A program made the translations under genes and the position numbers. DNA of 41,466 nt from Candidatus Woesearchaeota archaeon (GTDB lineage: Archaea > Nanobdellota > Nanobdellia > Woesearchaeales > GW2011-AR9): the NCBI GenBank assembly GCA_016214025.1, contig JACRPH010000019.1, positions 1 to 41,466 on the forward strand, in the 5' to 3' direction. Below are positions 2,276-14,792 of the stretch, piece by piece. How positions within the stretch are numbered: the first letter of the stretch is position 1; the number at the start of each line of letters is the position of its first letter. The notes beneath the pieces are model-generated. The model made no database searches. It was given only the letters and a program-made list of their open reading frames with translations, and was not told the origin of the DNA.

Positions 2276-3154
2276 TGAGGTTACGGAGCTGGTTCGGTCG
2301 GAGCCGCCGTATTCTACTTGGCCTTTGGTGCTGGGGATGAAGTCAGCGCAGATGTCGTTTATTTCGTCTCCTTCAATGTCTATCATGGTGGTGTAGAATC
2401 TGATGCATACTTCATTATAATTTTCTTTTAGATATCTTACAATTACTCCGCCATCAGAATTGCCGTTCTTTAGTTCTATGACTTGTTCTTTAGGGGTGCC
2501 GACTTTTTTGAAGATCCAAGTAGATTTCTCTCCGGTTAGCTCTAAGTTTAATTTTACGGCGATGCCATCTTCATCTACGTATGGAGTATTGGCTTGGTCA
2601 CTGGGTGCAGTTACTCCCCAGGTGATTTTGTAGAAGTAGCCTTTAACTGGTTCTTCGGTGTCAGCTTCTCCGTCTTCGTCCTTATCTTCGTAACAGAAGT
2701 CATTTACGCATACTTGGAGTTTGGCGCATTTCCATTCCTGCTCTGTTTCTGGATCGGTTTCTCTTTCGCATAAGATAGGTGATTTGGTGTCGCTCTTTTC
2801 AGCTTGGATGGAGCCTACCGATTGGGCAGTTCCGTAAGGATCGAGGATAAAAACAGCAGATTGTCCGGGGGATTTGGAACGTTTAGCTTCGTCGTAGTCG
2901 CAGGCTGCTCTCATGGCTTCTCCATTAACGTCTAATAGGTTTATGCCCCTCACGGTGAAAGCATCCACAAGATCGGTATTAGCCCATTTGATCCAGCTTT
3001 GAGTGATATCCGGCATCAATAAGTTAGAGAGAGCTTGATAGCTGCCGAGACGCTCCATGAACTTGCCGAAGGCTCCGGCGAGGGAAGCTCCCGCTTGGAT
3101 TTTTTGATACCAATTGGTTTGGTCGGCAGTCTGAGGAACTTGGGTTACCTGCAC
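2246..3154 (-). CDS. C-terminal part of large secreted protein (third frame)
   Basis: The frame is open from a GTG at 3154 for 302 codons. The start is probably not a real initiation site: the same reading continues a longer protein whose upstream part lies in another frame ending at 3024. Residues about 8-45 (QTADQTNWYQKIQAGASLAG...) form a helical segment. The remainder contains two Cys pairs (about 133-160, CAKLQVCVNDFCYED) and an acidic calcium-loop-like DKDEDGEADTEE, consistent with an extracellular beta domain. A one-base frameshift around 3160-3175 separates it from the preceding part. The BRO gene starts one base after its stop. I do not recognise the family. Confidence 0.55.
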   Translation of the reverse strand: MQVTQVPQTADQTNWYQKIQAGASLAGAFGKFMERLGSYQALSNLLMPDITQSWIKWANTDLVDAFTVRGINLLDVNGEAMRAACDYDEAKRSKSPGQSAVFILDPYGTAQSVGSIQAEKSDTKSPILCERETDPETEQEWKCAKLQVCVNDFCYEDKDEDGEADTEEPVKGYFYKITWGVTAPSDQANTPYVDEDGIAVKLNLELTGEKSTWIFKKVGTPKEQVIELKNGNSDGGVIVRYLKENYNEVCIRFYTTMIDIEGDEINDICADFIPSTKGQVEYGGSDRTSSVTSSSPEVEMNI

Positions 3155-5087
3155 AAGCTGTATTCCTGATTGTTATTGTTTCAGAGAGTGCAGCGGCATA
3201 ATCTGGGGAGTCGCCTTGGGCTTTTAGTTTATCTTCGATTGCTTTGAGTTTGACTAGAGTTTCAGATGGTGCTTCAGCTGGGGGAGCTGCTGCGGGTGCG
3301 GCTGCGGGTGCTTCACCTCCGGGTGCTGCTGCTGCTGCTGGTTTCTTGGTAATGGTAATATCAGTATCTTTGGTCATTGTTACTGGTTTAGCACCAGTTT
3401 TTAGCACTGTTCCTGACTCCATGTCACCAACATCGTAATAGGCACCATTAACATACACTACCTCTTTACCACCAACTTTTACTTGATATTCGCTGCTCAT
3501 GAGTGCTTCGGGAACCGCTGCTTTTACTGCATCTGCTGCGGTAGTTTTCTTGTTTTTATTATAATCGTATTTTAGAGTTATACTGTTAGCCGTAGCTTTA
3601 GTCGCATCTGCAGATACTCCCAGCCCCTTCAATTTAGAGGTATCTATTTCTACTGGCTGAGGTGCCGTTGGTGCTGTTCCTCCGGATTGTGTTAATTTGC
3701 TTTGTGCTTCGCTTTTTGTTTTATCTGCTGCTTTTACTTGTTCCCCCGCGTCAAATTCTTTAGTTATTGCTTCGGCTAATTGCTTCTGTAAACCTACCTT
3801 TTTTGCGGGGTCTAACTCTGCTTCTACTTTAGCACTTAATGCTTTACGCTCTACCGTTGCAAGTTCCAAATCGGTTTGCGCCTTTGCAGCTATTTTTTCG
3901 GCATCTTTCACATCTTGTTGTGCGACTTCAGTTGCTTGTGCTGCAGCTACCGCTGTTACTTCTTTCAATTTTTTTTGTGCTGCTTGTTCTGCTGTGGTTG
4001 CTGCTGATGCTTGAGCTGCTTTTGCTTGGACATCTGCGGTTGCTGCCGTTACTTTTTTCTCTGCTCCTATTTTTGCAGTGGTTGCTTGTTTTAATTCTGT
4101 GTCTGCTTTCGTCTTCATCTCATATGCTTCTTTTACATTCTTCTCGGCCGCCACTACTGCTGCATCTGCACTTTCTTTTTCTGCTGTTGCTGCTCCTTGT
4201 GCTCTTGCTTTCGCTCCTTCTAATGCCACATCTGCATTTATTTTTGCACTTTCTGCTGCTACCTTTGCTGTTTCTGCTGCTTTTACTCTCTGTGTCATAG
4301 CAGTTAATTCCACGATTTCAGCCTCTTTAGTTCTTTTTGCTCCTTCCGCTTCTGCCGTTAATGCATCCTTTACTTTGGTTTTTTGTGCTAAGGTTAATTG
4401 TGCTTTTTTCACATCTTCTTGTGCGGCTTTAACTGCTTGTTGCGCGGCTGATGCCTTCGCTTCTGCTGTCGTTGCTATAGGTGCTGTTGGTTTTGCTTCT
4501 ATCTTCGCAGGTGCCGCCGCAGTTGCCTTCGCTTTCTCCGTTTCCGTAGGCTCAACCTTAAACTCTTTCATATCCGATTTATCCTTTACTGCCGTTTCTA
4601 AGTCTTCGCCATATTTAGCTTTATACTTAACTGCAACATCGGCTTGTTCCTCCGGTGATAAACCACCCCAAATCTCCATAAACTCCTCTTCATCATCATC
4701 TGAAGTGTATCCAGATAGTAAGTTATCTAATTTTGCAGCCGTGCTTTCATACTTCTTCTGTCCTTCTTGATAGATAGCTAATTGGGTTTTAGCTCCAGCC
4801 TTGCCGTCAGGAGTACACGTTTCACCTATTGTTCCAATACAAGTTACTTCGACTTTCTTCTTGTCATCTGTCCAGCACTTATCACCCTCGCAAACGTGTT
4901 CTGACTTTCTTCTTGTCATCTGTCCAGCACTTATCACCCTCGCAAACGTGTTCTTTAGGGAGATTAGCTTTGATCCACTTCTCTTGGAATTCAGTGACTT
5001 GTTCTGTTTTACTAGTATCAATCCCCAGCGTCGTCGCTGCCTGCTGTGCTCCGCCATACTTTGCCAGCATTTGATTAGCATATTCAA
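3024..5087 (-). CDS. middle part of large secreted protein, Ala-rich coiled coil (second frame)
   Basis: The frame is open for 687 codons, but the first 60 or so residues overlap the real upstream frame, so the in-frame segment starts near 4954. Order: a Cys-containing motif EHVCEGDKCWTDDKKKV, then CIGTIGETC. A compact helical domain follows (about 100-165), then some 300 residues of Ala/Lys/Glu-rich heptad-like coiled coil (about 185-490). Next is a beta-type domain (VGVSADATKATANSITLKYD region) and a Pro/Ala-rich linker. The last 35 residues before 3024 are out of frame with the C-terminal domain. I infer a filamentous surface or secreted protein that is broken here. The long plus-strand ORFs opposite are shadows of the Ala-rich repeats. 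Confidence 0.55.
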   Translation of the reverse strand: MNMLIKCWQSMAEHSRQRRRWGLILVKQNKSLNSKRSGSKLISLKNTFARVISAGQMTRRKSEHVCEGDKCWTDDKKKVEVTCIGTIGETCTPDGKAGAKTQLAIYQEGQKKYESTAAKLDNLLSGYTSDDDEEEFMEIWGGLSPEEQADVAVKYKAKYGEDLETAVKDKSDMKEFKVEPTETEKAKATAAAPAKIEAKPTAPIATTAEAKASAAQQAVKAAQEDVKKAQLTLAQKTKVKDALTAEAEGAKRTKEAEIVELTAMTQRVKAAETAKVAAESAKINADVALEGAKARAQGAATAEKESADAAVVAAEKNVKEAYEMKTKADTELKQATTAKIGAEKKVTAATADVQAKAAQASAATTAEQAAQKKLKEVTAVAAAQATEVAQQDVKDAEKIAAKAQTDLELATVERKALSAKVEAELDPAKKVGLQKQLAEAITKEFDAGEQVKAADKTKSEAQSKLTQSGGTAPTAPQPVEIDTSKLKGLGVSADATKATANSITLKYDYNKNKKTTAADAVKAAVPEALMSSEYQVKVGGKEVVYVNGAYYDVGDMESGTVLKTGAKPVTMTKDTDITITKKPAAAAAPGGEAPAAAPAAAPPAEAPSETLVKLKAIEDKLKAQGDSPDYAAALSETITIRNTACAGNPSSSDCRPNQLVSKNPSGSFPRRSLRQVHGASRQLSSSL
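4851..4954. repeat. exact 52-bp tandem duplication causing a frameshift
   Basis: The 52-bp unit at 4851-4902 is repeated exactly at 4903-4954. It encodes EHVCEGDKCWTDDKKKV. Because 52 is not a multiple of three, the second copy is read out of frame and the first-frame ORF ends at 4882. Removing one unit would join the 460-codon and 687-codon frames seamlessly. Confidence 0.95.
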
Positions 5088-6264
5088 TATCTGCCTGCTG
5101 CTGCATCAAGTTAGCTCTCGCCGGAGAGTTAGGTATTTTAGCAATAACCTCAGGAGGAATCTGCACCCAGCCTTGTTCAGTCCATCCGATATAATTTCCG
5201 TTTGAGTCCACTTTAATAGGCTGGTCGGTGCAGATAGAGCCACAGTCTAAATCTAAGTAAGGATTTTTAGATTTATCAGTTTTGATTTCTACCTGTCCGT
5301 CGCCGGGAAGGCCAGCTACGCTAAGGTCGCCTTTCCAATTCTTTTTTTCGTCACCTGCTGGAACTTCTTTCTTTTTAAGGGGTTCTTCTTGGGGAGGGGC
5401 AGAAGGAGCGGGACCACCAGGTGTAGCAGGAGCGCCAGGTTGAGCAGCAACTTTAGGAGGTTGTGCTTCTCCTTTAGCATCAATTTCTATCTTCACTGCT
5501 TTTCCTAGATAGTCACTTTTACGCGCGTCTTTAATTTCTGATGTGGTTTGGGAACAATCTGCCTTAGTACAATATTGCCCAGGACTATCATGTTTAACTT
5601 GAACACCAACTCCGTCATCGCCAATAATGAAAAACTGCTTATCGGGGGATTGATACATCTGCTTATCGCCCCACTTTTCCTCTTTAGTGTAAGTAACTTC
5701 ATTACCTTTAGCGGTTGTTACTGTGATATCACCTTTTTGGGGATCAATAGAATAGGAAGGGGTAACAGTGGCGGCGGGTTTCTTGGGTGCTCCTTGAGGT
5801 GGGGACGGAGTGGCAGGACCGGCGGGTTGAGTTTCTGGCGTACTTTCCATATCCGTAGTATACTGTGCAATTGCTTCTTCAGTTGTAATATCTCCTCCCA
5901 AATACTTCAAAGCAATTTCGACATCTCCATTGAAAGCGCGATATAATTGAGACAATTCCTCTTTATCAAGAACACTAATTCCTGCACTTAACAATTCTTG
6001 GTCGAAGCCAATTAGGGGGTCTTCTAGTTGGATTGGGACATTCGATGCTTCCGTAGATGATTGAACTACTTCTTGTTGAAACGAAGATTGACCCTCCATA
6101 AACTTGTTCCCATCCTTATTTTGACACGCAGATTTGCAGACACATGAACTACCTGTACAATCCCAGTCTCCGCTAGCTTTGCCTTTAAATTCTTTTGTGT
6201 TAGGTAATGGAATCGTTGGAGGAGCTTTTAATTGTAAGTCGTATTTAATGTTTTCTACATACAA
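4882..6264 (-). CDS. N-terminal part of large secreted protein (first frame)
   Basis: The frame is open from a TTG at 6264 for 460 codons and out of frame with the signal-peptide leader ORF at 6255-6347. Contents: a Cys-rich start (about 30-50, DWDCTGSSCVCKSACQNKDG), a UBA/CUE-like helical stretch (about 85-125, LDKEELSQLYRAFNGDVEIA), and a Pro/Ala linker. Two beta domains separated by a Pro-rich linker follow (about 165-260 and 300-360), then a helical segment. The protein ends in RTRLRG because the 52-bp duplication shifts the frame. Either the TTG is used and the product lacks a signal peptide, or the gene is broken by a frameshift at its junction with the leader. The function is unknown. 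Confidence 0.55.
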   Translation of the reverse strand: MYVENIKYDLQLKAPPTIPLPNTKEFKGKASGDWDCTGSSCVCKSACQNKDGNKFMEGQSSFQQEVVQSSTEASNVPIQLEDPLIGFDQELLSAGISVLDKEELSQLYRAFNGDVEIALKYLGGDITTEEAIAQYTTDMESTPETQPAGPATPSPPQGAPKKPAATVTPSYSIDPQKGDITVTTAKGNEVTYTKEEKWGDKQMYQSPDKQFFIIGDDGVGVQVKHDSPGQYCTKADCSQTTSEIKDARKSDYLGKAVKIEIDAKGEAQPPKVAAQPGAPATPGGPAPSAPPQEEPLKKKEVPAGDEKKNWKGDLSVAGLPGDGQVEIKTDKSKNPYLDLDCGSICTDQPIKVDSNGNYIGWTEQGWVQIPPEVIAKIPNSPARANLMQQQADIEYANQMLAKYGGAQQAATTLGIDTSKTEQVTEFQEKWIKANLPKEHVCEGDKCWTDDKKKVRTRLRG

Positions 6265-6375: not shown

Positions 6376-7386
6376 TTAAATTAGTTTCCTAATCTCCTTT
6401 TCTAATTCTTCTTTGGAGGGCAAGTAAAGCTTATACTTTGATACAAACAACTGGTTGGAAATTCCACCTAAAGCATATTCTACAAAAAAGTTATTTTTCT
6501 CTGCAGCGAGAATTATGCCTATCGGCTCTCCATCCCCTACACCCATCTCTTCCTTTTTAAAATAATTCAAATACAGATTCATTTGCCCAATATCATTATG
6601 ATCAACTTTGCCGATTTTTAAGTCAATCAGGACAAAACATTTCAGAATACGGTGGTAAAACACCAAATCCACATAAAAATGCTGCTGATTAAGAGTTAAT
6701 CGGTATTGGCGTGCAACAAAAGTAAATCCTTTCCCCAGCTCCAGCAGAAACATCTGTAGATTATCTATGATTTTTTGCTCAAATTCTTTCTCAGTAAGCT
6801 CATGCTCTTGAGATATACCCAAAAATTCAAGCACATAAGGATCTTTCACCATATCCTTCGGAGAAGAAACTGATTGCCCTTTAGTCGAGAGAGCTAAAAC
6901 TTTATTCTTATCTTTACCTAAAGCTAACCTCTCAAAAAGCATAGAGTTAATCTGCCTAGATAGCTCTCGGACGCTCCACTTCTCATTTAAGCATTGCTTC
7001 TCGTAAAAACTCCTCGATAAGTCATCAGATACATTTAATAATTCGCAATAATGTGACCAGCTTAATTTTCCAGACGCTGTCTGGATTTTTGGGTATTTGG
7101 TAAAAAAGAATCTCATCAGATAGGTATTGCTTCTGCTGAACCCTTTCCCATACCGGAGCTTCAAATCTTGGGATATCTTATCTAATAACTTACTCCCATA
7201 CTCTGCTTTCTCTTTCCCTTTTTGTTCATATTCAACAATTCTCTTTCCGATTTCCCAGTAAGTTTGGACTAAAGTTTGATTGATCTGGTAAAATGTTTTT
7301 TGTCTGGCCTTTTCTAAGAGAAGACCAATAGAAGAGATTAAAGAATTATACTCTTCTTCTGTTGGAATTAGCTCTTTAAGAGTCAT
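6376..7386 (-). CDS. DUF1016/YhcG-type PD-(D/E)XK nuclease
   Basis: The protein has 336 aa, the usual family size. The N-terminal DUF1016_N helical domain (about 10-165) includes YWEIGKRIVEYEQKG, GKGFSRSN and LSWSHYCELLNVSDD. The C-terminal nuclease domain (about 185-336) contains HFYVDLVFYHR followed by FVLIDLKIG. That gives the catalytic pattern D...(D/E)-x-K, here D-L-K where most members have E-L-K. It ends PSKEELEKEIRKLI, identical in form to its paralogue at 12614. It starts two bases after the stop of leader B, so translation is probably coupled. The family is frequent in DPANN and bacterial accessory DNA, and a role in DNA cleavage or junction binding is inferred from the fold. Confidence 0.85.
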   Translation of the reverse strand: MTLKELIPTEEEYNSLISSIGLLLEKARQKTFYQINQTLVQTYWEIGKRIVEYEQKGKEKAEYGSKLLDKISQDLKLRYGKGFSRSNTYLMRFFFTKYPKIQTASGKLSWSHYCELLNVSDDLSRSFYEKQCLNEKWSVRELSRQINSMLFERLALGKDKNKVLALSTKGQSVSSPKDMVKDPYVLEFLGISQEHELTEKEFEQKIIDNLQMFLLELGKGFTFVARQYRLTLNQQHFYVDLVFYHRILKCFVLIDLKIGKVDHNDIGQMNLYLNYFKKEEMGVGDGEPIGIILAAEKNNFFVEYALGGISNQLFVSKYKLYLPSKEELEKEIRKLI

Positions 7387-7388
7387 AT

Positions 7389-7583
7389 TTAATCCCCCAC
7401 CAACGCCTCTCCTCCTCTATCCCACCAGCTCATTCCAGCTCTATTATCAGGGTCGCCCCACAGAAAACACTTAATAGAGCCCCACACTCCCGCACAATTA
7501 TCCGAAGTTTCAGCCTCAGCAAAAGTAAACGTACTCAAAACTAGCACAAACACCAAAAGTACACCAAATAACCTCTTTTTCAT
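7389..7583 (-). CDS. leader copy B: secreted small protein, 64 aa
   Basis: Signal peptide MKKRLFGVLLVFVLVLSTFT is followed by the conserved mature part DNCAGVWGSIKCFLWGDPDN and RAGMSWWDRGGEALVGD. Two Cys flank a Trp-rich segment. A TATA box at 7609-7618 lies 30 bp upstream of the ATG, so the mRNA is nearly leaderless. The stop is two bases from the ATG of the DUF1016 gene. Six copies of this leader occur in the window, always just in front of a different gene. It could be the preserved 5' part of a once larger secreted protein or a functional micropeptide; the sequence does not decide. Confidence 0.7.
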   Translation of the reverse strand: MKKRLFGVLLVFVLVLSTFTFAEAETSDNCAGVWGSIKCFLWGDPDNRAGMSWWDRGGEALVGD

Positions 7584-7641: not shown

Positions 7642-7674
7642 GTATCGGACGCATATCGGACGCATATCGGACGC
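7642..7674. repeat. triple 11-bp repeat after AlbA_2 gene 1
   Basis: There are three units of (G/A)TATCGGACGC on the plus strand, at 7642-7652, 7653-7663 and 7664-7674. They lie directly 3' of the AlbA_2 stop at 7678. The 11-bp period is about one helical turn, so three identical sites would face the same side of the DNA. Confidence 0.85.
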
Positions 7675-7677
7675 AGG

Positions 7678-9018
7678 CTATTTTAAACTATAAAATACTT
7701 TTTTCCCGGTTCCCTCTCTTTTAATTAATCCCTTCCTCAATAGCTCATTAATATCTCGATTAGCCGTGTCTTTCACCACACCCGCCAGTTCACAATATTC
7801 TTTACTCGTAATCTTTCCTTTTTCTCCTATAAACTTCACTGCCTGTCTTTGCCTTTCATTCAAATTTTTAATCTCTTCTTCAGTTACTTTGTATTTTCTT
7901 AAAGTAACTACTAAATTGTTGGAGATTATCTCAAATAAAGGCTCTGGTAACCCATTACTTAAACATTCTTTAATAATTCTATTTGTGCCTGTCCCCCACT
8001 GCTCAATAAATTTAATCAGGAAAAAATGTTTTGCAATCAAAGGATTCTTGGGAATAGAATCATGTTTCTTTCTCAAATCATCCACAGATAGCCCATTGGG
8101 TAAAAGACCGCAACCCCACACTTCAATCCTATCATCAAAAATTCTAACTTGTACATTACATGAAAATTGATAATCCCGATGACATAGGGCATTAGTAATT
8201 GCTTCCCTAACCGCTTCGATTGGATATTCCCACGTTTCTACTCTTTCTGTTCCAACAATCTTAGCATGCAGTTTAATATGTTCTTTTACGAATTCAACTG
8301 CATTTTCCCTTTGGTCAATAATATTTCCTCCAAAAACTTTCATATCAATAAACTCTAAAGGTTCAATTCCCTTAAATCTGGCACATCTTATTTCTGCCTG
8401 CAAAAAGAAAGTTTGTGGATTTTTACCGAACAATAGAATTGCAGCATTAGTCAACCTTTCCTCTCTCATTAACTTTAATCTCTCTAAAGCTTCTTTCAAT
8501 GGAGTTTCAGGCTCAATATCAAAATTTCTTTCTGCTTTTGCCTTCCTTAAAAACCACTTCACTTTCTCTTCATCAATATCATTTAAGGTCGCTTCTTTGC
8601 AGATTAGTTCCGTATAATTATAATCAACACTTTCTTTAGCCAGCTTTCTTATCTCTTGACTGCTAAGCCTCTTGTTTGTTTTTCCCACTCTCTTGAAAAC
8701 CATATTTTTCTCAAACACCGGCTTACTCTCGTTTTCTTCAACCTCGATAGATAAAACTTCTTTCCCTGCCATCTTCACAAACTCTACCGATGGAAAAACA
8801 ACCGGATCCGTATTCTGCTTTATCTCATTAGTCAGATTTTCAATTTCTTTGCCTTTGATCGTAACCCCAACCACTTCCTTTACAGTTCCATCTTTATTTT
8901 CTCCCACACCCACCAGAATTTTCCCGCCTTTCGTGTTAGCAAAAGCTGAAATGGTTTCCAGAATTTCATTTATTTCTGCTAAGGACTTCTTGAACTCTAC
9001 CGTCTGGCTTTCTTTCAT
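7678..9018 (-). CDS. AlbA_2/Schlafen-like ATP-binding regulator 1
   Basis: The start is taken at 9018 (MKESQTVEFKKSLAEI), not the in-frame ATG 39 bp upstream, which falls inside leader C. The product has 446 aa. Order: an AlbA_2 (DUF4/Schlafen-type) nucleic-acid-binding domain (about 1-115) with TVEFK and NTKGGKILVGV; a linker; a GHKL/HATPase-like domain (about 185-370) with ITNALCHRDY and GTGTNRI; and a C-terminal winged helix (about 385-446, ERQRQAVKFIGEKGKITSKE). It ends KREGTGKKVFYSLK. The ATG overlaps the leader stop as ATGA. The first 95 residues are almost the same as in its two neighbours, then they diverge. A DNA-binding regulatory or defence role is inferred. Confidence 0.85.
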   Translation of the reverse strand: MKESQTVEFKKSLAEINEILETISAFANTKGGKILVGVGENKDGTVKEVVGVTIKGKEIENLTNEIKQNTDPVVFPSVEFVKMAGKEVLSIEVEENESKPVFEKNMVFKRVGKTNKRLSSQEIRKLAKESVDYNYTELICKEATLNDIDEEKVKWFLRKAKAERNFDIEPETPLKEALERLKLMREERLTNAAILLFGKNPQTFFLQAEIRCARFKGIEPLEFIDMKVFGGNIIDQRENAVEFVKEHIKLHAKIVGTERVETWEYPIEAVREAITNALCHRDYQFSCNVQVRIFDDRIEVWGCGLLPNGLSVDDLRKKHDSIPKNPLIAKHFFLIKFIEQWGTGTNRIIKECLSNGLPEPLFEIISNNLVVTLRKYKVTEEEIKNLNERQRQAVKFIGEKGKITSKEYCELAGVVKDTANRDINELLRKGLIKREGTGKKVFYSLK

Positions 9019-9167
9019 ACATCTCCTTTCCCCGTCAAATTCCCCCACAGAAAACACTTAATAGAGCCAAAGAAGCCAGCACAATTATCAGTATTCTCGT
9101 CAGCAAGTGTAATTGAACTTAAAACTAGCAAAAACACCATTAGTACGCTAAATAACCTCTTTTCCAT
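9015..9167 (-). CDS. leader copy C: secreted small protein, 50 aa
   Basis: Signal peptide MEKRLFSVLMVFLLVLSSIT is followed by DNCAGFFGSIKCFLWG and then NLTGKGDV. Relative to copies B, E and F, the block after CFLWG (DPANRAG...WWDR) is replaced by NLTGKGDV. The stop is formed by the TGA that overlaps the AlbA_2 start codon (ATGA). A TATA box lies at 9191-9202. The ORF is too short to appear in many automatic annotations. Confidence 0.65.
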   Translation of the reverse strand: MEKRLFSVLMVFLLVLSSITLADENTDNCAGFFGSIKCFLWGNLTGKGDV

Positions 9168-9190
9168 GGTATTAAGCTAAGTAATACTCA

Positions 9191-9202
9191 TTATATTTTA
9201 AA
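9191..9202 (-). promoter_or_regulatory. TATA box for leader C operon
   Basis: TTTAAAATATAA on the minus strand is centred about 29 bp upstream of the leader ATG at 9167. A conserved upstream block (GTTTTAAATGGCTCAAGAAG) is shared with leader D and with relic copies near 14.0 and 14.6 kb. Confidence 0.6.
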
Positions 9203-9276
9203 GCTTTTTCTTCTTGAGCCATTTAAAACACCCGTGGTTTAGTGGGTTATTCAAAACCATCTAACCTAAACCAACT

Positions 9277-9309
9277 TTGCACCGCATTTGCACCGCACTT
9301 GCACCGCAT
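9277..9309. repeat. triple 11-bp repeat at a relic AlbA_2 3' end
   Basis: There are three units of TTGCACCGCA(T/C) at 9277-9287, 9288-9298 and 9299-9309. The last unit touches the stop codon of a relic C-terminus (see 9309-9379). The same unit, also three times, ends AlbA_2 gene 3 at 11011-11043. Confidence 0.85.
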
Positions 9310-9379
9310 CAAGCAGCAACGTAATAAATGCTCTTCCCTGCCCCTACAACTCGGGTAAGTCCACAATGTTCTTTACTTG
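9309..9379 (-). pseudogene. relic C-terminus of an AlbA_2 winged helix
   Basis: On the minus strand this reads SKEHCGLTRVVGAGKSIYYV then AA and a TGA. It is a homologue of the last 25 residues of AlbA_2 gene 3 (KGVGKSIYYTAA). It sits downstream of the stop of AlbA_2 gene 2 and has no body of its own. It is probably left over from replacement of one AlbA_2 3' half by another. A near-identical copy lies at 14059-14200. Confidence 0.7.
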
Positions 9380-10752
9380 TTCCGGATACTTCCGGATACT
9401 TCCGGATACGGTTTATACCGAACCAACCTCGCTTTTCCTTCCTTGAGCAGCAAGCCTAGCGAAACCAACTTGGAAATATCTGCTCTTGCCTGCCGGTCAG
9501 TAACACCAAACATCTGAGCGTAAACTTCAGATTTAATATCCTCATGCGACTTCAGATACTCTAAGAGCTGGACCTGTCTCTGGTTAAGTTCTCCCTGAAA
9601 CCGTTCCAAGACGTCTAATGTTGCCCGATAAATCGTCACCAGAACAGCATCACCAAAATCTTTAATATCTGGAAGCTTAGGTTTTAAAGAGTGATTCTTG
9701 TATTCCTCCATGATACGGTCCCAGCCTTCACCCAGCTCTTCAATATATTTTAGTTTATTCAAAACTCTGACCAGCGTCGGATTTCTTGATTTTTGCATAT
9801 TAATAATGTTTTTAGGAGTAATGCTGCCGGGCAATCCTCCAGGGTTGTAGTATTCAATCCGGTCATAGAACATTTTAATAATAATCTTCCCTCGTTCTGC
9901 ATAATCTCGATGAGCAACAGCATTGACTACTAATTCCCGAATGGCAAAAAGGGGATATTCAGGAATATCTTCCCTTTGTACTTTATGGGGATGAAGTTGG
10001 GACATCAAAGCAATATGATTTTTTATATACTCCTCTGTTTTGTCTATTTGGTCAAAGACATTTCCAGAGAACTCTTTATAGTCTAATTTTTCTGTTCCCA
10101 CCGTATTGCCTTTATATCTTGCTACGGCAACAATTGCGTAAGGAAAATACTTTTGGGGGTTTTTACTAAACAATAAGAGCCCTGCATTTGCTAATTTGTT
10201 ATTTTTAAGACAGCCCAAACTCTGCAACAATTGTCTGGGCTTACTTAAAATCTTTGATCCAAAAATTCGTTCATATTGTTTAATAAAGTTCTTGACAAAG
10301 TCTAAGTCTATATCTTTTAGCGTGGCTTCTTCACAGGGCAGCTCAGTAAAGCTATAATCTATGCTTTCTTTAGTCATTCTCCTGATTTCCTGGACTGAAA
10401 GCTTTCTATTCGTTTTTCCCACTCGCATAAATGTATTTCCTTTTGCAAAAACCGGTTTTGTATCACACTCTTTTAGGGTAATCAGAACAACGTCCTTCCC
10501 TTCCATCTGCGTAATATCTATGGAAGGAAAAATCACCGGATCGGTATTCTGCTTTATCTCATTAGTTAAATTCTCTATTTCCTTGCCTTTAATGGTAATT
10601 CCAACCACTTCCTTTACAGTTCCATCTTTATTTTCTCCCACACCCACCAGAATTTTCCCGCCTTTCGTGTTAGCAAAAGCTGAAATGGTTTCCAGAATTT
10701 CATTTATTTCTGCTAAAGATTTCTTGAATTCTACCGTCTGGCTCTCTTTCAT
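9373..10752 (-). CDS. AlbA_2/Schlafen-like ATP-binding regulator 2
   Basis: The start at 10752 overlaps the stop of leader D as ATGA. The product has 459 aa. AlbA_2 domain about 1-115, nearly identical to gene 1 up to about residue 90. HATPase-like domain about 190-370 with VVNAVAHRDYAERG and LGEGWDRIMEE. C-terminal winged helix about 395-450 (LNQRQVQLLEYLKSHEDIKS). The last residues, YPEVSGSIRNK, are encoded by the three 10-bp repeats at 9380-9409. The body differs strongly from gene 1 and is closer to gene 3. Role inferred from domains: nucleic-acid binding with ATP-dependent regulation. Confidence 0.85.
   Translation of the reverse strand: MKESQTVEFKKSLAEINEILETISAFANTKGGKILVGVGENKDGTVKEVVGITIKGKEIENLTNEIKQNTDPVIFPSIDITQMEGKDVVLITLKECDTKPVFAKGNTFMRVGKTNRKLSVQEIRRMTKESIDYSFTELPCEEATLKDIDLDFVKNFIKQYERIFGSKILSKPRQLLQSLGCLKNNKLANAGLLLFSKNPQKYFPYAIVAVARYKGNTVGTEKLDYKEFSGNVFDQIDKTEEYIKNHIALMSQLHPHKVQREDIPEYPLFAIRELVVNAVAHRDYAERGKIIIKMFYDRIEYYNPGGLPGSITPKNIINMQKSRNPTLVRVLNKLKYIEELGEGWDRIMEEYKNHSLKPKLPDIKDFGDAVLVTIYRATLDVLERFQGELNQRQVQLLEYLKSHEDIKSEVYAQMFGVTDRQARADISKLVSLGLLLKEGKARLVRYKPYPEVSGSIRNK
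9380..9409. repeat. triple 10-bp repeat inside the 3' end of AlbA_2 gene 2
   Basis: There are three exact units of TTCCGGATAC at 9380-9389, 9390-9399 and 9400-9409. They lie inside the last codons of the gene. The 10-bp period changes the reading frame at each unit, so selection is probably on the DNA and not on the peptide. A two-unit version occurs at 14151-14170. Confidence 0.85.
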
Positions 10753-10901
10753 ACATCTCCTTTCCCCGTCAAATTCCCCCACAGAAAACACTTAATAGAG
10801 CCCCACACTTCCGCACAATTATCAGTATTCTCGTCAGCAAAAGTAATTGAACTCAAAACTAGCAGAAACACCATTAGTACACCGATGAACCTCTTTTCCA
10901 T
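10749..10901 (-). CDS. leader copy D: secreted small protein, 50 aa
   Basis: Signal peptide MEKRFIGVLMVFLLVLSSIT is followed by DNCAEVWGSIKCFLWG and NLTGKGDV. It has the same length as copy C and ends in the same way, with its stop overlapping the AlbA_2 start as ATGA. DNA identity with copy C is very high and continues about 280 bp into the AlbA_2 gene. Confidence 0.65.
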   Translation of the reverse strand: MEKRFIGVLMVFLLVLSSITFADENTDNCAEVWGSIKCFLWGNLTGKGDV

Positions 10902-10924
10902 GGTATTAAGCTAAGTAATACTCA

Positions 10925-10936
10925 TTATATTTTAAA
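10925..10936 (-). promoter_or_regulatory. TATA box for leader D operon
   Basis: TTTAAAATATAA on the minus strand is about 29 bp upstream of the leader ATG at 10901. The region from here back through GGGTGTTTTAAAGGGCTCAG is almost the same as upstream of leader C. Confidence 0.6.
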
Positions 10937-11010
10937 GCTTTTTCTTCCTGAGCCCTTTAAAACACCCGTGGTTTAGTGGGTTATTCAAAACCATCTAACC
11001 TAAACCAACT

Positions 11011-11043
11011 TTGCACCGCATTTGCACCGCATTTGCACCGCAT
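11011..11043. repeat. triple 11-bp repeat overlapping the stop of AlbA_2 gene 3
   Basis: There are three exact units of TTGCACCGCAT at 11011-11021, 11022-11032 and 11033-11043. The last base is part of the AlbA_2 TGA stop. The position and period match the repeats of the other AlbA_2 genes, but the unit sequence differs. Confidence 0.85.
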
Positions 11044-12401
11044 CAGGCAGCGGTGTAATAAATGCTCTTTCCTACTCCTTTCTGCTTAATCTGCTTAAGC
11101 GTCTGTAACTTGGATAACTCTCGCAGTGCTGTATCTTGGGAAACATGAAGCAATTGTGCACAACTGCCAGTGGTGATCATCCCTTCTTTCTGAAGAGATT
11201 GTAAGATTACTTTCTGCCTTTCTGTAAGAGTTATCACCTCTTTCTTTTCTTCAAATTTATCACGTGTCGAATACAGAGTTACTAAAAAACTGTACTTATC
11301 TGCTTCTATCTTTGGCATCTGTGGATGGAGAGGATGCTTCTTATGCTCATCAATTATCTTGTTCCAACCTTCACCTAACTCCTCAATATATCTTACCTTT
11401 GCTAAAACGTTAGCAACAATTGGATTTCTGGAATATTGTTTACTTAAGATATTTCTTGAGTTAATGCCTTTCGGAAATCCCCCAATATTATAAATCTCCA
11501 ACCGGTCTTTAAATAATTTAACTATTACTTTACTCCCCTGTTCCGAATAATCACGATGGCAGGCAGCATTAGTTACTAGCTCTCTAATGGAAAACAGCCC
11601 ATACTCTGGAATATCTTCCCTCTGAACGCGATAAGGGTGCTGCCGGGACATAACCACAATATTCTCTTTGATATATTTGTCACAGGCATCTATCTGCTGA
11701 AACAGGTTTCCGGTAAATTCTTTATAATCTAACCTCTCTGTACTCTCAACTTCACGTTTATATCTCGCTGCAGCAATGTAAGCATTCATTAAAAATTTCA
11801 GAGGAGTTTTGCCAAACAAGAGGATTCCAGCATTAGTTACTTTCTGCCCTTTAAGACACTGGAGTGATTCCAGGAATTCTTCTGGTTTACCGATTACTTT
11901 CCTCTCAGAAATGGATTCGTACAAAGGGATAAATTCTTTCCTCACAAAATCCCAATCGATATCTTCCATCTTAGCATCTTTACATATCATATCAGTAAAA
12001 CTATAATTTACACTCTCTTTAGTTAAATTCCTTATTTCATCAATACTGAGTTTAATACTGCTTCGCCCAACTCTTTTATACGCTCTTCCTTTGGCAAACA
12101 CCGGCTTGCTTTGATTTTCTTCAACTTCTACAGACAAAACCTCTTTTCCACCCATTCTTACAAACTCTATCGACGGAAAAATAACAGGGTCGGTATTCTG
12201 CTTTATCTCATTAGTTAAATTCTCTATTTCCTTGCCTTTAATGGTAATTCCAACCACTTCTTTTATGGTCCCATCTTTATTTTCTTCAATCCCGACCAGA
12301 ATTTTCCCGCCTTTCGTGTTAGAAAATGCTGAAATAGTTTCTAAAATTTCATTTATCTCTGCTAAAGACTTCTTGAACTCTACGGTCTGGCTTTCTTTCA
12401 T
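11043..12401 (-). CDS. AlbA_2/Schlafen-like ATP-binding regulator 3
   Basis: The start is taken at 12401 (MKESQTVEFKKSLAEI), four bases after the stop of leader E; the upstream in-frame ATG at 12416 lies within the leader. The product has 452 aa. AlbA_2 domain about 1-115 (NTKGGKILVGIEENKDGT), HATPase-like domain about 190-370 with VTNAACHRDYSEQG and LGEGWNKIIDE, and winged helix about 395-452 (LTERQKVILQSLQKEGMITT). It ends GKSIYYTAA. The N-terminal 90 residues are nearly the same as in genes 1 and 2. The body is most like gene 2. Confidence 0.85.
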   Translation of the reverse strand: MKESQTVEFKKSLAEINEILETISAFSNTKGGKILVGIEENKDGTIKEVVGITIKGKEIENLTNEIKQNTDPVIFPSIEFVRMGGKEVLSVEVEENQSKPVFAKGRAYKRVGRSSIKLSIDEIRNLTKESVNYSFTDMICKDAKMEDIDWDFVRKEFIPLYESISERKVIGKPEEFLESLQCLKGQKVTNAGILLFGKTPLKFLMNAYIAAARYKREVESTERLDYKEFTGNLFQQIDACDKYIKENIVVMSRQHPYRVQREDIPEYGLFSIRELVTNAACHRDYSEQGSKVIVKLFKDRLEIYNIGGFPKGINSRNILSKQYSRNPIVANVLAKVRYIEELGEGWNKIIDEHKKHPLHPQMPKIEADKYSFLVTLYSTRDKFEEKKEVITLTERQKVILQSLQKEGMITTGSCAQLLHVSQDTALRELSKLQTLKQIKQKGVGKSIYYTAA

Positions 12402-12405
12402 GCAT

Positions 12406-12585
12406 CTATGCCTCACTCCTATCCCACCAGTTCATACCGGCACGATTAGCTGGGTCGCCCCACAGAAAACACCTAATCGAGCTCCACACTCCCGCACAAT
12501 TATCAGCAGTATCAGCAGCAGCAAACGTAATTGAACTCAAAACTAGCACAAATATCAAAAGTACACCAGTAAACCTCTTTTTCAT
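12406..12585 (-). CDS. leader copy E: secreted small protein, 59 aa
   Basis: The start is taken at the ATG at 12585 (MKKRFTGVLLIFVLVLSSIT). A TTG 12 bp upstream would add MLKS but would spoil the N-terminal charge pattern shared by all copies. The mature part has DNCAGVWSSIRCFLWGDPAN and RAGMNWWDRSEA. It lies 28 bp after the stop of the second DUF1016 gene. The upstream 45 bp match leader A. Confidence 0.65.
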   Translation of the reverse strand: MKKRFTGVLLIFVLVLSSITFAAADTADNCAGVWSSIRCFLWGDPANRAGMNWWDRSEA

Positions 12586-12613
12586 GGATTTAAGCAAGAT
12601 ATTCTTCTCAGGT

Positions 12614-13690
12614 TTAAATTAGTTTCTTAATCTCCCTTTCTAACTCCTCTTTGGAAGGTAAATAAAGCTTGTACTTTGACACAAATAATTTATTTGGCAT
12701 CCGAGATAAAGCAAACTCAACTTGTACTTTATCTTTACCAGTGCATAAGACAATTCCAATCGGTTCATTATCTCCCTCTTTGTTCAGCTCTTTGCGCACA
12801 TAATTCAAATAAAAATTAAGCTGTCCGCTATCCTCCGGCTTAAATTTTTCGGTCTTAAGTTCAATTACCACGTAACACTTAAGATAAATGTTATAAAATA
12901 ATAAATCTATGTAAAAATGGTCGTTGTCTAAAGTAAACCGTTTCTGCCTCGCCACAAAGCTAAACCCTTGCCCTAATTCCAGCAAGAACTTCTGTAAATC
13001 ATCCAAAATTTTAGTCTCCAGTTCTTTCTCAGAATATTCTTTCTTTGACTCCAAATCCAAAAACTCCAAAACATAAGGGTCTTTAATAACATCTTCTACC
13101 GTTTGAGGAACAAGAGAGGCAGATTCACGTTTAATTAATGATTTTTTATTTTTGCTTAATAAAAGCCGTTCATAATGTAAAGAGTAAATCTGCCTTTTTA
13201 GATCTCGAACACTTAAGTTTTCCTGTTCTGCGTACTTCTCGAAATAAGTCCTCTTCTTTTCCTCATCAATTTTGATTAATTCACAATAATGGGTCCAAGT
13301 AAGTTTAAATTCCAATTCGCCAGTCGCTGACTGTTGAATCTTATTTTTATAAGTCAAATAAAATTGGCGCATATTCCTTAAATTACTAATGCTAAAGCCT
13401 TTTCCCAATTCTTCCGTTAAAATTCCAGACAGTTTTTCCAGCAAGAAAGATCCATAATCCGCCCTCTGTTTGCCTTTCTGCTCTTCTTCAACAATTTTTT
13501 GACCTATTTTAAAATAAGCACGAAGCATTTCCTGATTGACAAACTGAAACGCACTATTCTTCGCTTTAGCTACAATCTGCTTAATCTCTTGAAGTAAATT
13601 TCCAAATCCAATGATATTTTTATTCATGGTATGTTTTGTTTGACTCCAACTCAATTGGTGAGACACTGTCTGACTTTTTGAAGAAACCAT
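12614..13690 (-). CDS. DUF1016/YhcG-type PD-(D/E)XK nuclease, second copy
   Basis: The product has 358 aa from the ATG at 13690, one base after the stop of leader F. The family start may be the Met at 13627 (MNKNIIGFGNLLQEI). The 21 extra residues include SQTVSHQLSWSQ, which looks like a displaced copy of the internal LSWSHYCEL region. DUF1016_N about 22-185 (IGQKIVEEEQKGKQRADYGS, LTWTHYCELIKIDEE). Nuclease domain about 205-358 with HFYIDLLFYNI and YVVIELKTEK, giving the full D...E-x-K site. It ends PSKEELEREIKKLI. It is a clear paralogue of the gene at 6376, but only moderately similar, so the duplication is not recent. Confidence 0.85.
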   Translation of the reverse strand: MVSSKSQTVSHQLSWSQTKHTMNKNIIGFGNLLQEIKQIVAKAKNSAFQFVNQEMLRAYFKIGQKIVEEEQKGKQRADYGSFLLEKLSGILTEELGKGFSISNLRNMRQFYLTYKNKIQQSATGELEFKLTWTHYCELIKIDEEKKRTYFEKYAEQENLSVRDLKRQIYSLHYERLLLSKNKKSLIKRESASLVPQTVEDVIKDPYVLEFLDLESKKEYSEKELETKILDDLQKFLLELGQGFSFVARQKRFTLDNDHFYIDLLFYNIYLKCYVVIELKTEKFKPEDSGQLNFYLNYVRKELNKEGDNEPIGIVLCTGKDKVQVEFALSRMPNKLFVSKYKLYLPSKEELEREIKKLI

Positions 13691-13691
13691 T

Positions 13692-13880
13692 TTAATTCCC
13701 CACCAACGCCTCCGTTCTATCCCACCATCCTTTCCCCGCACGATTAGCCGGATTCCCCCACAGAAAACATTTAATTGAGCCCCACACTCCAGCACAATTA
13801 TCGGTAGTATCAGAAGCAGCGAAAGTAGAACTAATTAAAACTAACAGTACTAATAATCCTGCGCTCTTTTTAACATCCAT
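13692..13880 (-). CDS. leader copy F: secreted small protein, 62 aa
   Basis: A shorter signal start, MDVKKSAGLLVLLVLISSTF, is followed by the same mature part DNCAGVWGSIKCFLWGNPAN and RAGKGWWDRTEALVGN. It is the most divergent leader in its signal peptide and upstream region, yet nearly identical in the mature part. That argues the mature peptide, and not only the signal sequence, is conserved. Its stop is one base from the DUF1016 ATG. Confidence 0.7.
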   Translation of the reverse strand: MDVKKSAGLLVLLVLISSTFAASDTTDNCAGVWGSIKCFLWGNPANRAGKGWWDRTEALVGN

Positions 13881-14058
13881 CTCTTTTTAAAGTCAGTAGT
13901 TTATTGGGCTTTATTAATCTTTTCTCCAGCCAGATGTTATTGTGCTTCTTGACCGAAGCTGACCGAAGTTTAAACTTCAGATTTATTCTCCGGTTTCGCG
14001 TCAAAGCTTTTTCTTCCTGAGTCCTTTAAAACCACCCTGATTTTTGGGATCATCTAAC

Positions 14059-14200
14059 TTGCACCGCATTTACACCACATCAGGCAGCGACGTAATAAAT
14101 GCTCTTCCCTGCTCCTACAACTCGAGTAAGTCCACAATGTTCTTTACTTGTTCCGGATACTTCCGGATACGGTTTATACCGAACCAACCTCGCTTTTCCA
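14059..14200. repeat. second copy of the 9277-9441 relic segment
   Basis: This segment is almost identical to 9277-9441, which covers the relic C-terminus, its 11-bp repeats and the 3' end of AlbA_2 gene 2 with its 10-bp repeats. Each repeat array has lost one unit here: two units of the TTGCACCGCAT type at 14059-14080 and two of TTCCGGATAC at 14151-14170. Confidence 0.75.
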
Positions 14201-14401
14201 TTCCACCTTTACACTATATTTCTCATGAGTTTTTAAGGTTTATTGTCAAACTGCTTTTTTCGGACATTATTTCGGACATCTATTTCCCTTTAAAATAGGC
14301 CCTCTTTGTTTTCCCTTTCTTTTCTTCAATCTTTTGCTTCAAATTTCCTAATTGCTCATTAAAACAGACCAGCCAACACTGGTTCTCATCTCAATTAACA
14401 C

Positions 14402-14434
14402 TTGCCGATATCCTGCCGATATCTTGCCGATATT
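14402..14434. repeat. triple 11-bp repeat without an intact gene
   Basis: There are three units of (T/C)TGCCGATAT(C/T) at 14402-14412, 14413-14423 and 14424-14434. The period is the same as at the AlbA_2 3' ends. It probably marks the 3' end of a lost gene. Confidence 0.8.
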
Positions 14435-14792
14435 TGTCTTTTAAATTATTCAAACCATGCATTTTCCAAACGCTGTCTGGATTTTTGTTTTTGACCGAAG
14501 CTGACCGAAGTTTAAACTTCAGATCTTTTTCCTGCTCCGTCAAAGCATTTTCTTTCCGAGCCCTTCCTGAGCCCTTTCTGAGTCCTTTAAAACACCTTTT
14601 GGTTTAGTAAGTTATTCATCTATACTCAAACCGGCCTTGCACCGCATTTACGCCGCAACAGAATAAATACTTGCATCCCCTACTTTCTCTTAATCGCTCA
14701 TCAATCATTCACTAATCGCTCAGTTAAAGGCTCACTTTACCCCCCCCGTCAGCACCACTAGATAAATTCGGGCGACACTGTAGCCCATTTTA

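Follow-up and report, generated by a model that had tools for sequence, protein, structure and literature searches.

Tandem repeats spaced near one helical turn beside AlbA_2 genes of a woesearchaeotal contig as probable DNA sites of the winged helix encoded next to them

The DNA stretch analysed here (the window) comprises 41,466 nucleotides of a Candidatus Woesearchaeota archaeon (assembly GCA_016214025.1, contig JACRPH010000019.1) and contains three paralogous minus-strand genes, each with an array of three tandem 10-11-bp units at or directly behind its 3' end. All three proteins carry AlbA_2, HATPase_c_4 and HTH_DeoR/C-terminal winged helix-turn-helix (wHTH) domains above the Pfam cut-off, in a COG2865-like architecture. 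Gene 1 (7678..9057; SLFN_AlbA_2, HATPase_c_4 and wHTH, 459 amino acids) has its wHTH at 7681..7866 (recognition helix ..VVKDTANRDINEL..), placed by the wHTH alignment and by the helices and wing of an AlphaFold2 model; array 1 (7643..7675, 3 x 11 bp, 100%; forward-strand unit TATCGGACGCA, coding-strand TGCGTCCGATA) lies directly behind the stop codon, starting 5 bp past the last sense codon. Gene 2 (9373..10791, same domains, 472 amino acids; wHTH at 9406..9591 by alignment, recognition helix ..VTDRQARADISKL..) contains array 2 (9380..9409, 3 x 10 bp, 100%; forward-strand unit TTCCGGATAC, coding-strand GTATCCGGAA) within its final codons, where the three copies fall in three successive reading frames, one frame each. 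Gene 3 (11043..12416, same domains, 457 amino acids; wHTH at 11046..11231 by alignment, recognition helix ..VSQDTALRELSKL..) has array 3 (11010..11043, 3 x 11 bp, 3.1 copies at 100%; forward-strand unit TTTGCACCGCA, coding-strand TGCGGTGCAAA) at its stop codon, with a start at +2 relative to the last sense codon. The arrays, all on the minus strand like their genes, were called with Tandem Repeats Finder (TRF) and the domains with Pfam. A first-pass annotation of the same DNA had described these three arrays and two relics; all five are present, with coordinates right within 1-2 bp by TRF. Perfect runs of about three copies with a period of 10-12 bp occur three times in the window, against a mean of 0 in 40 shuffled windows.

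Homologues were collected within the phylum and order to which the window belongs and within an archaeal class reached via a Methanosarcinales metagenome-assembled genome (MAG), the sampling being MAG-based. They fall into class B, the window type, with a wing like GKGRGxYYxL, and its sister class A, with a wing like GPDKGGHW. In class B, an array (about two copies or more, period 10-12, right after the wHTH) directly follows the wHTH in 70 of 114 genes, compared with 0.35% of shuffled flanks; in class A, 90 of 100 genes have an array in the linker just before the wHTH. The enrichment near other AlbA_2 genes that the annotation had implied is therefore found in both classes, and, beyond what it had foreseen, arrays occur in most relatives, at two fixed positions. 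They are also present beside another effector: the Fic gene L016 (Pfam Fic 1.6e-21) is followed by 3 x 12 bp after its stop codon, and each of the 11 Fic loci that carry a class B wHTH has a tandem repeat in this position, eight of them reaching 2.6 copies or more. The first bacterial plasmid matches were array-poor under the strict detector; arrays were seen in other relatives and with a relaxed detector, with class A arrays in plasmid homologues of Aliarcobacter, Arcobacter, Parabacteroides, Emticicia and Runella and a class B array in a Rhodothermus plasmid homologue. The homologue on an E. coli plasmid (L305), which ends before the wHTH, has no array. Since Fic genes and bacterial homologues possess arrays and the wHTH-less homologue does not, the arrays accompany the wHTH and not the effector. 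Two scans of viral contigs gave nine and zero relatives, so that viruses do not count as a main source.

Copy number is mostly near three, and the period depends on the reading frame. Non-redundant class B arrays with periods of 10, 11 and 12 bp number 10, 32 and 16 (9, 21 and 8 at 2.6 copies or more). Among the 38 class B arrays with at least 2.6 copies, 26 span or follow the stop codon, and 24 of these 26 have a period of 10 or 11 bp; those wholly inside the coding sequence have 12 bp in six of 12 cases. The coding arrays of class A are 12 bp long and in frame in 83 of 90 genes. The spacing is thus one helical turn when free of the frame, and the nearest multiple of three when in frame. Protein-level selection, which the annotation had thought unlikely, is excluded for the 10-11-bp and post-stop arrays by their frame changes and their position behind the stop.

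The repeated sequence covaries with the wHTH. Unit similarity, scored over any rotation and either strand, tracks the similarity of recognition helices in class B (Mantel p=2e-4). In a per-column test on 58 non-redundant class B genes and 62 columns, the top columns were 35, 20, 31 and 32 (z 6.7, 4.8, 2.9 and 2.6), of which columns 35 and 20 alone exceeded the family-wise 95% bound of 3.3. These four correspond to residues 420, 405, 416 and 417 of the AlphaFold2 model of gene 1, which was used for the wHTH only, its N-terminal part being poor (mean pLDDT 67.7). Residue 405 starts the helix 405-412, and residues 416, 417 and 420 lie in the first turns of the recognition helix 416-428. Class A, separately aligned and analysed, gave columns 31, 30, 28, 15, 48 and 27 (z 8.8 to 6.0), the same structural positions as in class B plus the wing. 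At its column 30 (helix position 6), the equivalent of class B column 35, all 34 genes with Glu have a GG core, and 16 of the 19 with Lys have CCC (p=6.5e-11). This pairing is the one expected from the chemistry of protein-DNA contacts, in which Glu would face cytosine and Lys would face guanine on the other strand. On a tree built without the contact residues, the Glu/Lys residue changes 12 times and the unit 11 times, nine of the changes being on the same branch (p=1.2e-10). As nine of 12 residue switches fall on branches where the unit also switches, shared ancestry is not the explanation. A correlation between unit sequence and recognition-helix residues was accordingly found in both classes, and this covariation supports the original suggestion of gene-specific arrays, probably recognised by the winged helix at the C-terminus of the protein that each gene encodes.

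Individual matched pairs illustrate the relation. Gene 1 combines VVKDTANRD with TGCGTCCGATA; the G125 and G271 genes with the same helix have TTGCGTCCGAT x2, and the gene 1 unit recurs with an identical recognition helix in G338 (L182). Gene 2, with DRQAR and TCCGGAA (CCGGAA), resembles DRMAR, ERTAR and DKTAR genes with CCGAA. Gene 3 has SQDTALREL and AATGCGGT, and L245 has SNDTSLREL and AAATGCGGTTT. One 10-mer is found on opposite strands in L181 (SARTANREL, TTGGCGAGAT) and L239 (SERTANREL, AAATCTCGCC), and L189 and L120 are likewise matched on opposite strands. The relation holds across effectors, as for Fic TKRTATRDL with AAGGGACACA and AlbA_2 SKKTATRDL with AAGGGGACAT, or for CGTCAGATT, common to Fic SRDTANRDL and HATPase-type SRDTANRWL, and across domains of life, as for Aliarcobacter TVKGIEWQ with AAACTAGGGTAA and archaeal TVKGVEWQ with AAAACTAGGGAG. 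The pairing of similar helices with similar units, regardless of strand or effector family, suggests that double-stranded DNA is read, and not peptide or RNA.

The own-genome baseline covered about 343 kb of 1.43 Mb (85 contigs, 14 AlbA_2 genes), half chosen around AlbA_2 genes and the other ten regions arbitrarily. Ten strong arrays were found in this sample, each of them at a gene, or a piece of one, that encodes a wHTH of this kind; the ten arbitrary regions yielded none. A second gene 1 array (double unit, up to three mismatches) was not found in the own genome, nor was another genomic target. As direct repeats near one helical turn apart, the arrays resemble iterons, to which the annotation had likened them; the upstream position of iterons is not seen, the arrays being in the linker or at the 3' end. 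Units upstream of 27 full genes were not in excess (2 vs 0.9 expected), and a second operator at the promoter was rejected on this ground. Leaders and N-terminal parts are similar in all three paralogues. Between genes 2 and 3 (u3/u2), DNA similarity is undetectable over the wHTH and resumes at 94% identity behind it; because the two genes differ over the wHTH while their flanks are alike, reader and site appear to have been exchanged together. Such joint exchange would explain the odd position of the site.

Taken as a whole, these data are best explained if each array is the DNA site of the adjacent wHTH, a reading to which we assign a probability of roughly 0.8 from sequence comparisons; the site would act in cis on its own gene. 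The best description would be a portable module in which every gene carries the predicted site of its own wHTH in cis. An effector gene (AlbA_2/HATPase_c_4 or Fic with a C-terminal wHTH) would hold about three copies of the site of its own protein, and their spacing of about one turn would let several protein molecules sit on one face of the DNA. The bound protein would then block transcription through the gene, park a toxic enzyme on its DNA, or both, so that its dose is kept low. With the site beside the wHTH codons, reader and site would remain linked during exchange of 3' ends, such as may have occurred among the window's three paralogues. The effectors belong to families with toxic members, the activity of AlbA_2 being predicted from family annotation. 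Among the possible outputs, a roadblock formed by copies stacked on one DNA face in or behind the gene, which would stop transcription through it, is the leading candidate, at slightly under even odds; tethering of the effector to its DNA is rather unlikely. More speculatively, reader and site may form an exchangeable cassette in toxin-like effectors of both domains, with the effector inactive on its own gene and freed when this DNA is lost or destroyed; the gene would then be an antitoxin or a sensor of genome damage, and the wHTH code would be readable, but we consider this proposal a long shot.

Several observations weigh against binding in cis. No array could be detected in about 40% of class B genes, among them a large DPANN subgroup whose wing reads GSYRGAYYVL; either genes can do without the arrangement, or the site has been relocated. 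In class A, the GG/CCC rule is broken by three Lys genes, the array of one of them probably being a neighbour's. Some gene pairs without common contact residues still have similar units, although part of this similarity is due to chance, since the measure allows any rotation and either strand. Slippage could also yield homogeneous copies, and arrays behind the stop codon cannot reduce the output of their own gene by simple promoter occlusion.

Explanations other than DNA binding were considered as well. The 12-bp repeats could encode a flexible four-residue repeat (VEKT, VGEK, VNGG) between domains, the 3' arrays being harmless tails; this would agree with the predominance of in-frame 12-bp arrays in class A (83 of 90) and with the tendency of the period towards 12 within coding sequence. 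However, arrays of 10-11 bp shift the frame, most class B arrays of at least 2.6 copies (26 of 38) span or follow the stop, and in class A the peptide is shaped by the DNA word and not the other way round: the difference between TREK and TTQK is exactly that between CTAGGGA and CTACCCA, in step with Glu and Lys in the recognition helix. A linker function, contradicted for the post-stop arrays, was set aside as highly improbable. Alternatively, the array could be read as RNA in the transcript, either as a repeat RNA like that of type III toxin-antitoxin systems or as an mRNA operator for the AlbA_2 RNase. In favour of this reading, AlbA_2/Schlafen domains belong to a family of RNases, the arrays are transcribed, and their orientation in class A is constant; nevertheless, units match on opposite strands (L181/L239, L189/L120), the covarying residues are in the recognition helix of the wHTH and not in the RNase domain, and the same arrays occur at Fic genes that lack an RNase domain. 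Type III repeats are single-stranded RNA upstream of the toxin; the present arrays are 3' of the gene or within it, and similar helices match the reverse complement. We regard a role as RNA as very unlikely.

Little more can be said for recombination or integration hot spots, that is, att-like sites or slippage marks left by exchange of 3' ends. Within the window, it is indeed the wHTH and array that distinguish units whose flanks are alike (u3/u2), decayed arrays are numerous in 13900-14700, and relics have contracted to two copies; yet such an origin leaves the covariation of unit and helix and the spacing near a helical turn unexplained, no recombinase tied to the arrays was seen, and 3' exchange may itself be a consequence of the layout of reader and site. 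This possibility, which we rate as slight, was put aside together with the linker and the RNA repeat on the grounds of frame, strand and covariation. A different output of the same binding deserves more weight: the array could gate downstream genes of defence operons (hsdR, hsdS, hsdM, BREX), or serve as a sensor that holds the effector until the DNA is degraded. Many homologues adjoin hsdR, hsdS, hsdM or BREX genes, some directly upstream of hsdR, hsdS or hsdM and some between brxC and pglX; in class A, 32 of 60 genes overlap the following gene or leave hardly any gap to it; and Schlafen-kinase-wHTH proteins were described in a 2026 survey as widespread BREX-linked candidate suicide effectors (PMC12839542). 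As many carriers, those of the window included, are outside defence operons, such gating is possible but not probable.

Beyond the intact arrays, the window contains relics. One with a gene 3 type unit (9276..9309, minus strand, 91%) lies behind a truncated wHTH reading ..SKEHCGLTRVVGAGKSIYYVAA*; the gene 2 unit is present twice at 14151..14170 (minus strand), followed by a truncated wHTH tail as at the former relic; and an array with the unit ~GATATCGGCA occupies 14403..14433 (minus strand, 2.8 copies, 95%). Further decayed copies were called by TRF at 13950-13968, 14258-14286, 14492-14510 and 14552-14588. The remains of at least five different arrays, together with truncated wHTH ends, make the region 13900-14700 a graveyard and suggest rapid turnover of cassettes at this locus. 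In the same cassette series, DUF1016/YhcG PD-(D/E)XK nuclease genes (6376-7386 and 12614-13795) flank the AlbA_2 genes; no arrays were found at the ends of either. Each AlbA_2 or YhcG gene is preceded by a small open reading frame (ORF) with a signal peptide and a repeated DNCAGxxGSIKCFLWG motif (minus strand; 7389-7583, 12406-12597 and 13692-13880, with leaders near 9020-9170 and 10750-10911). These ORFs resemble truncated N-termini of a secreted protein, a longer version of which is the ORF downstream of the class A AlbA_2 gene L129 of another genome. A perfect 52-bp tandem duplication (4851-4954) is located at the overlap of the minus-strand ORFs 3024-5087 and 4882-6264, the former having no Pfam match.

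Other arrays were seen outside the window. A third type of C-terminal domain (IPDKPNSRLQKYRLT type) is associated with 12-bp linker arrays (CCCCCCAAGTCA, GAGTCGCGGCTA and TCACCACGGAAG) in L306, L269 and L267 (Deinococcus, Azotobacter BREX, and Synechococcus hsdS-hsdR). On a Hymenobacter plasmid (L265), a palindromic 10-bp unit, CTTCCGGAAG x3 (434-463), is found upstream of a DUF4062 gene adjoining the AlbA_2 gene, and AAAGGGCTCAC x2 lies 121 bp behind the AlbA_2 stop, its unit being identical to that of archaeal L145. The near-identical wHTH genes L170, L227, L173 and L174 have copies of TGGGTAAAAA beside 8-bp arrays (AATAGTCT, AAATGGTG), and these arrays seem to be in mid-turnover. In L248 (2123-2180), adjacent 10-bp arrays (CGGATTTACA x2.7 and TTAATCTGCG x2.8) occur with no wHTH gene recognised nearby.

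Since every such gene would come with its own site, genomes would constitute a natural library of matched winged-helix/DNA pairs; the recognition code of the wHTH, already visible as Glu/GG and Lys/CCC, thereby becomes testable. The arrangement also offers a concrete lead on how effectors of the Schlafen and Fic types are controlled, those of restriction and BREX operons among them. Repeated operators are already known from autoregulators, but open-licence papers yielded no account of a site that adjoins the codons for its reader, whether within the gene or behind it, and that recurs across unrelated effector families of both archaea and bacteria. Among the closest parallels are partition centromeres (ParR-parC, TubR-tubC and AspA-pNOB8), in which short direct repeats are bound by small DNA-binding proteins: ParR has 10-bp direct repeats, and TubR is a wHTH protein that represses its own operon (PMC5016525, PMC9178275). 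AspA was among the wHTH fold matches of the gene 1 model. Centromere sites, however, precede the operon and work for a partition motor. The present sites lie within the gene that encodes their reader or directly behind it, they consist of about three copies, no motor gene is linked to them, and the reader forms the tail of an enzyme. TcpK likewise has a wHTH on tandem short boxes, of 9 bp, at oriT of pCW3 (PMC6137059), but binds them via the wing and for conjugation, while in the present proteins it is the recognition helix that covaries with the unit. The best fold match of the gene 1 model was DIP2311 (PDB 3LMM; E 6.7e-20, sequence match 2.2e-13), which, like the SLFN_AlbA_2/HATPase_c_4/wHTH family (COG2865), has the same architecture as the proteins of the window; a search of open-licence papers revealed no DNA site for this family. 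In type II toxin-antitoxin operons, a toxic effector and a DNA-binding part are under autogenous control. There the site is at the promoter; in the genes described here it lies within or after the gene, and reader and effector are combined in one protein.

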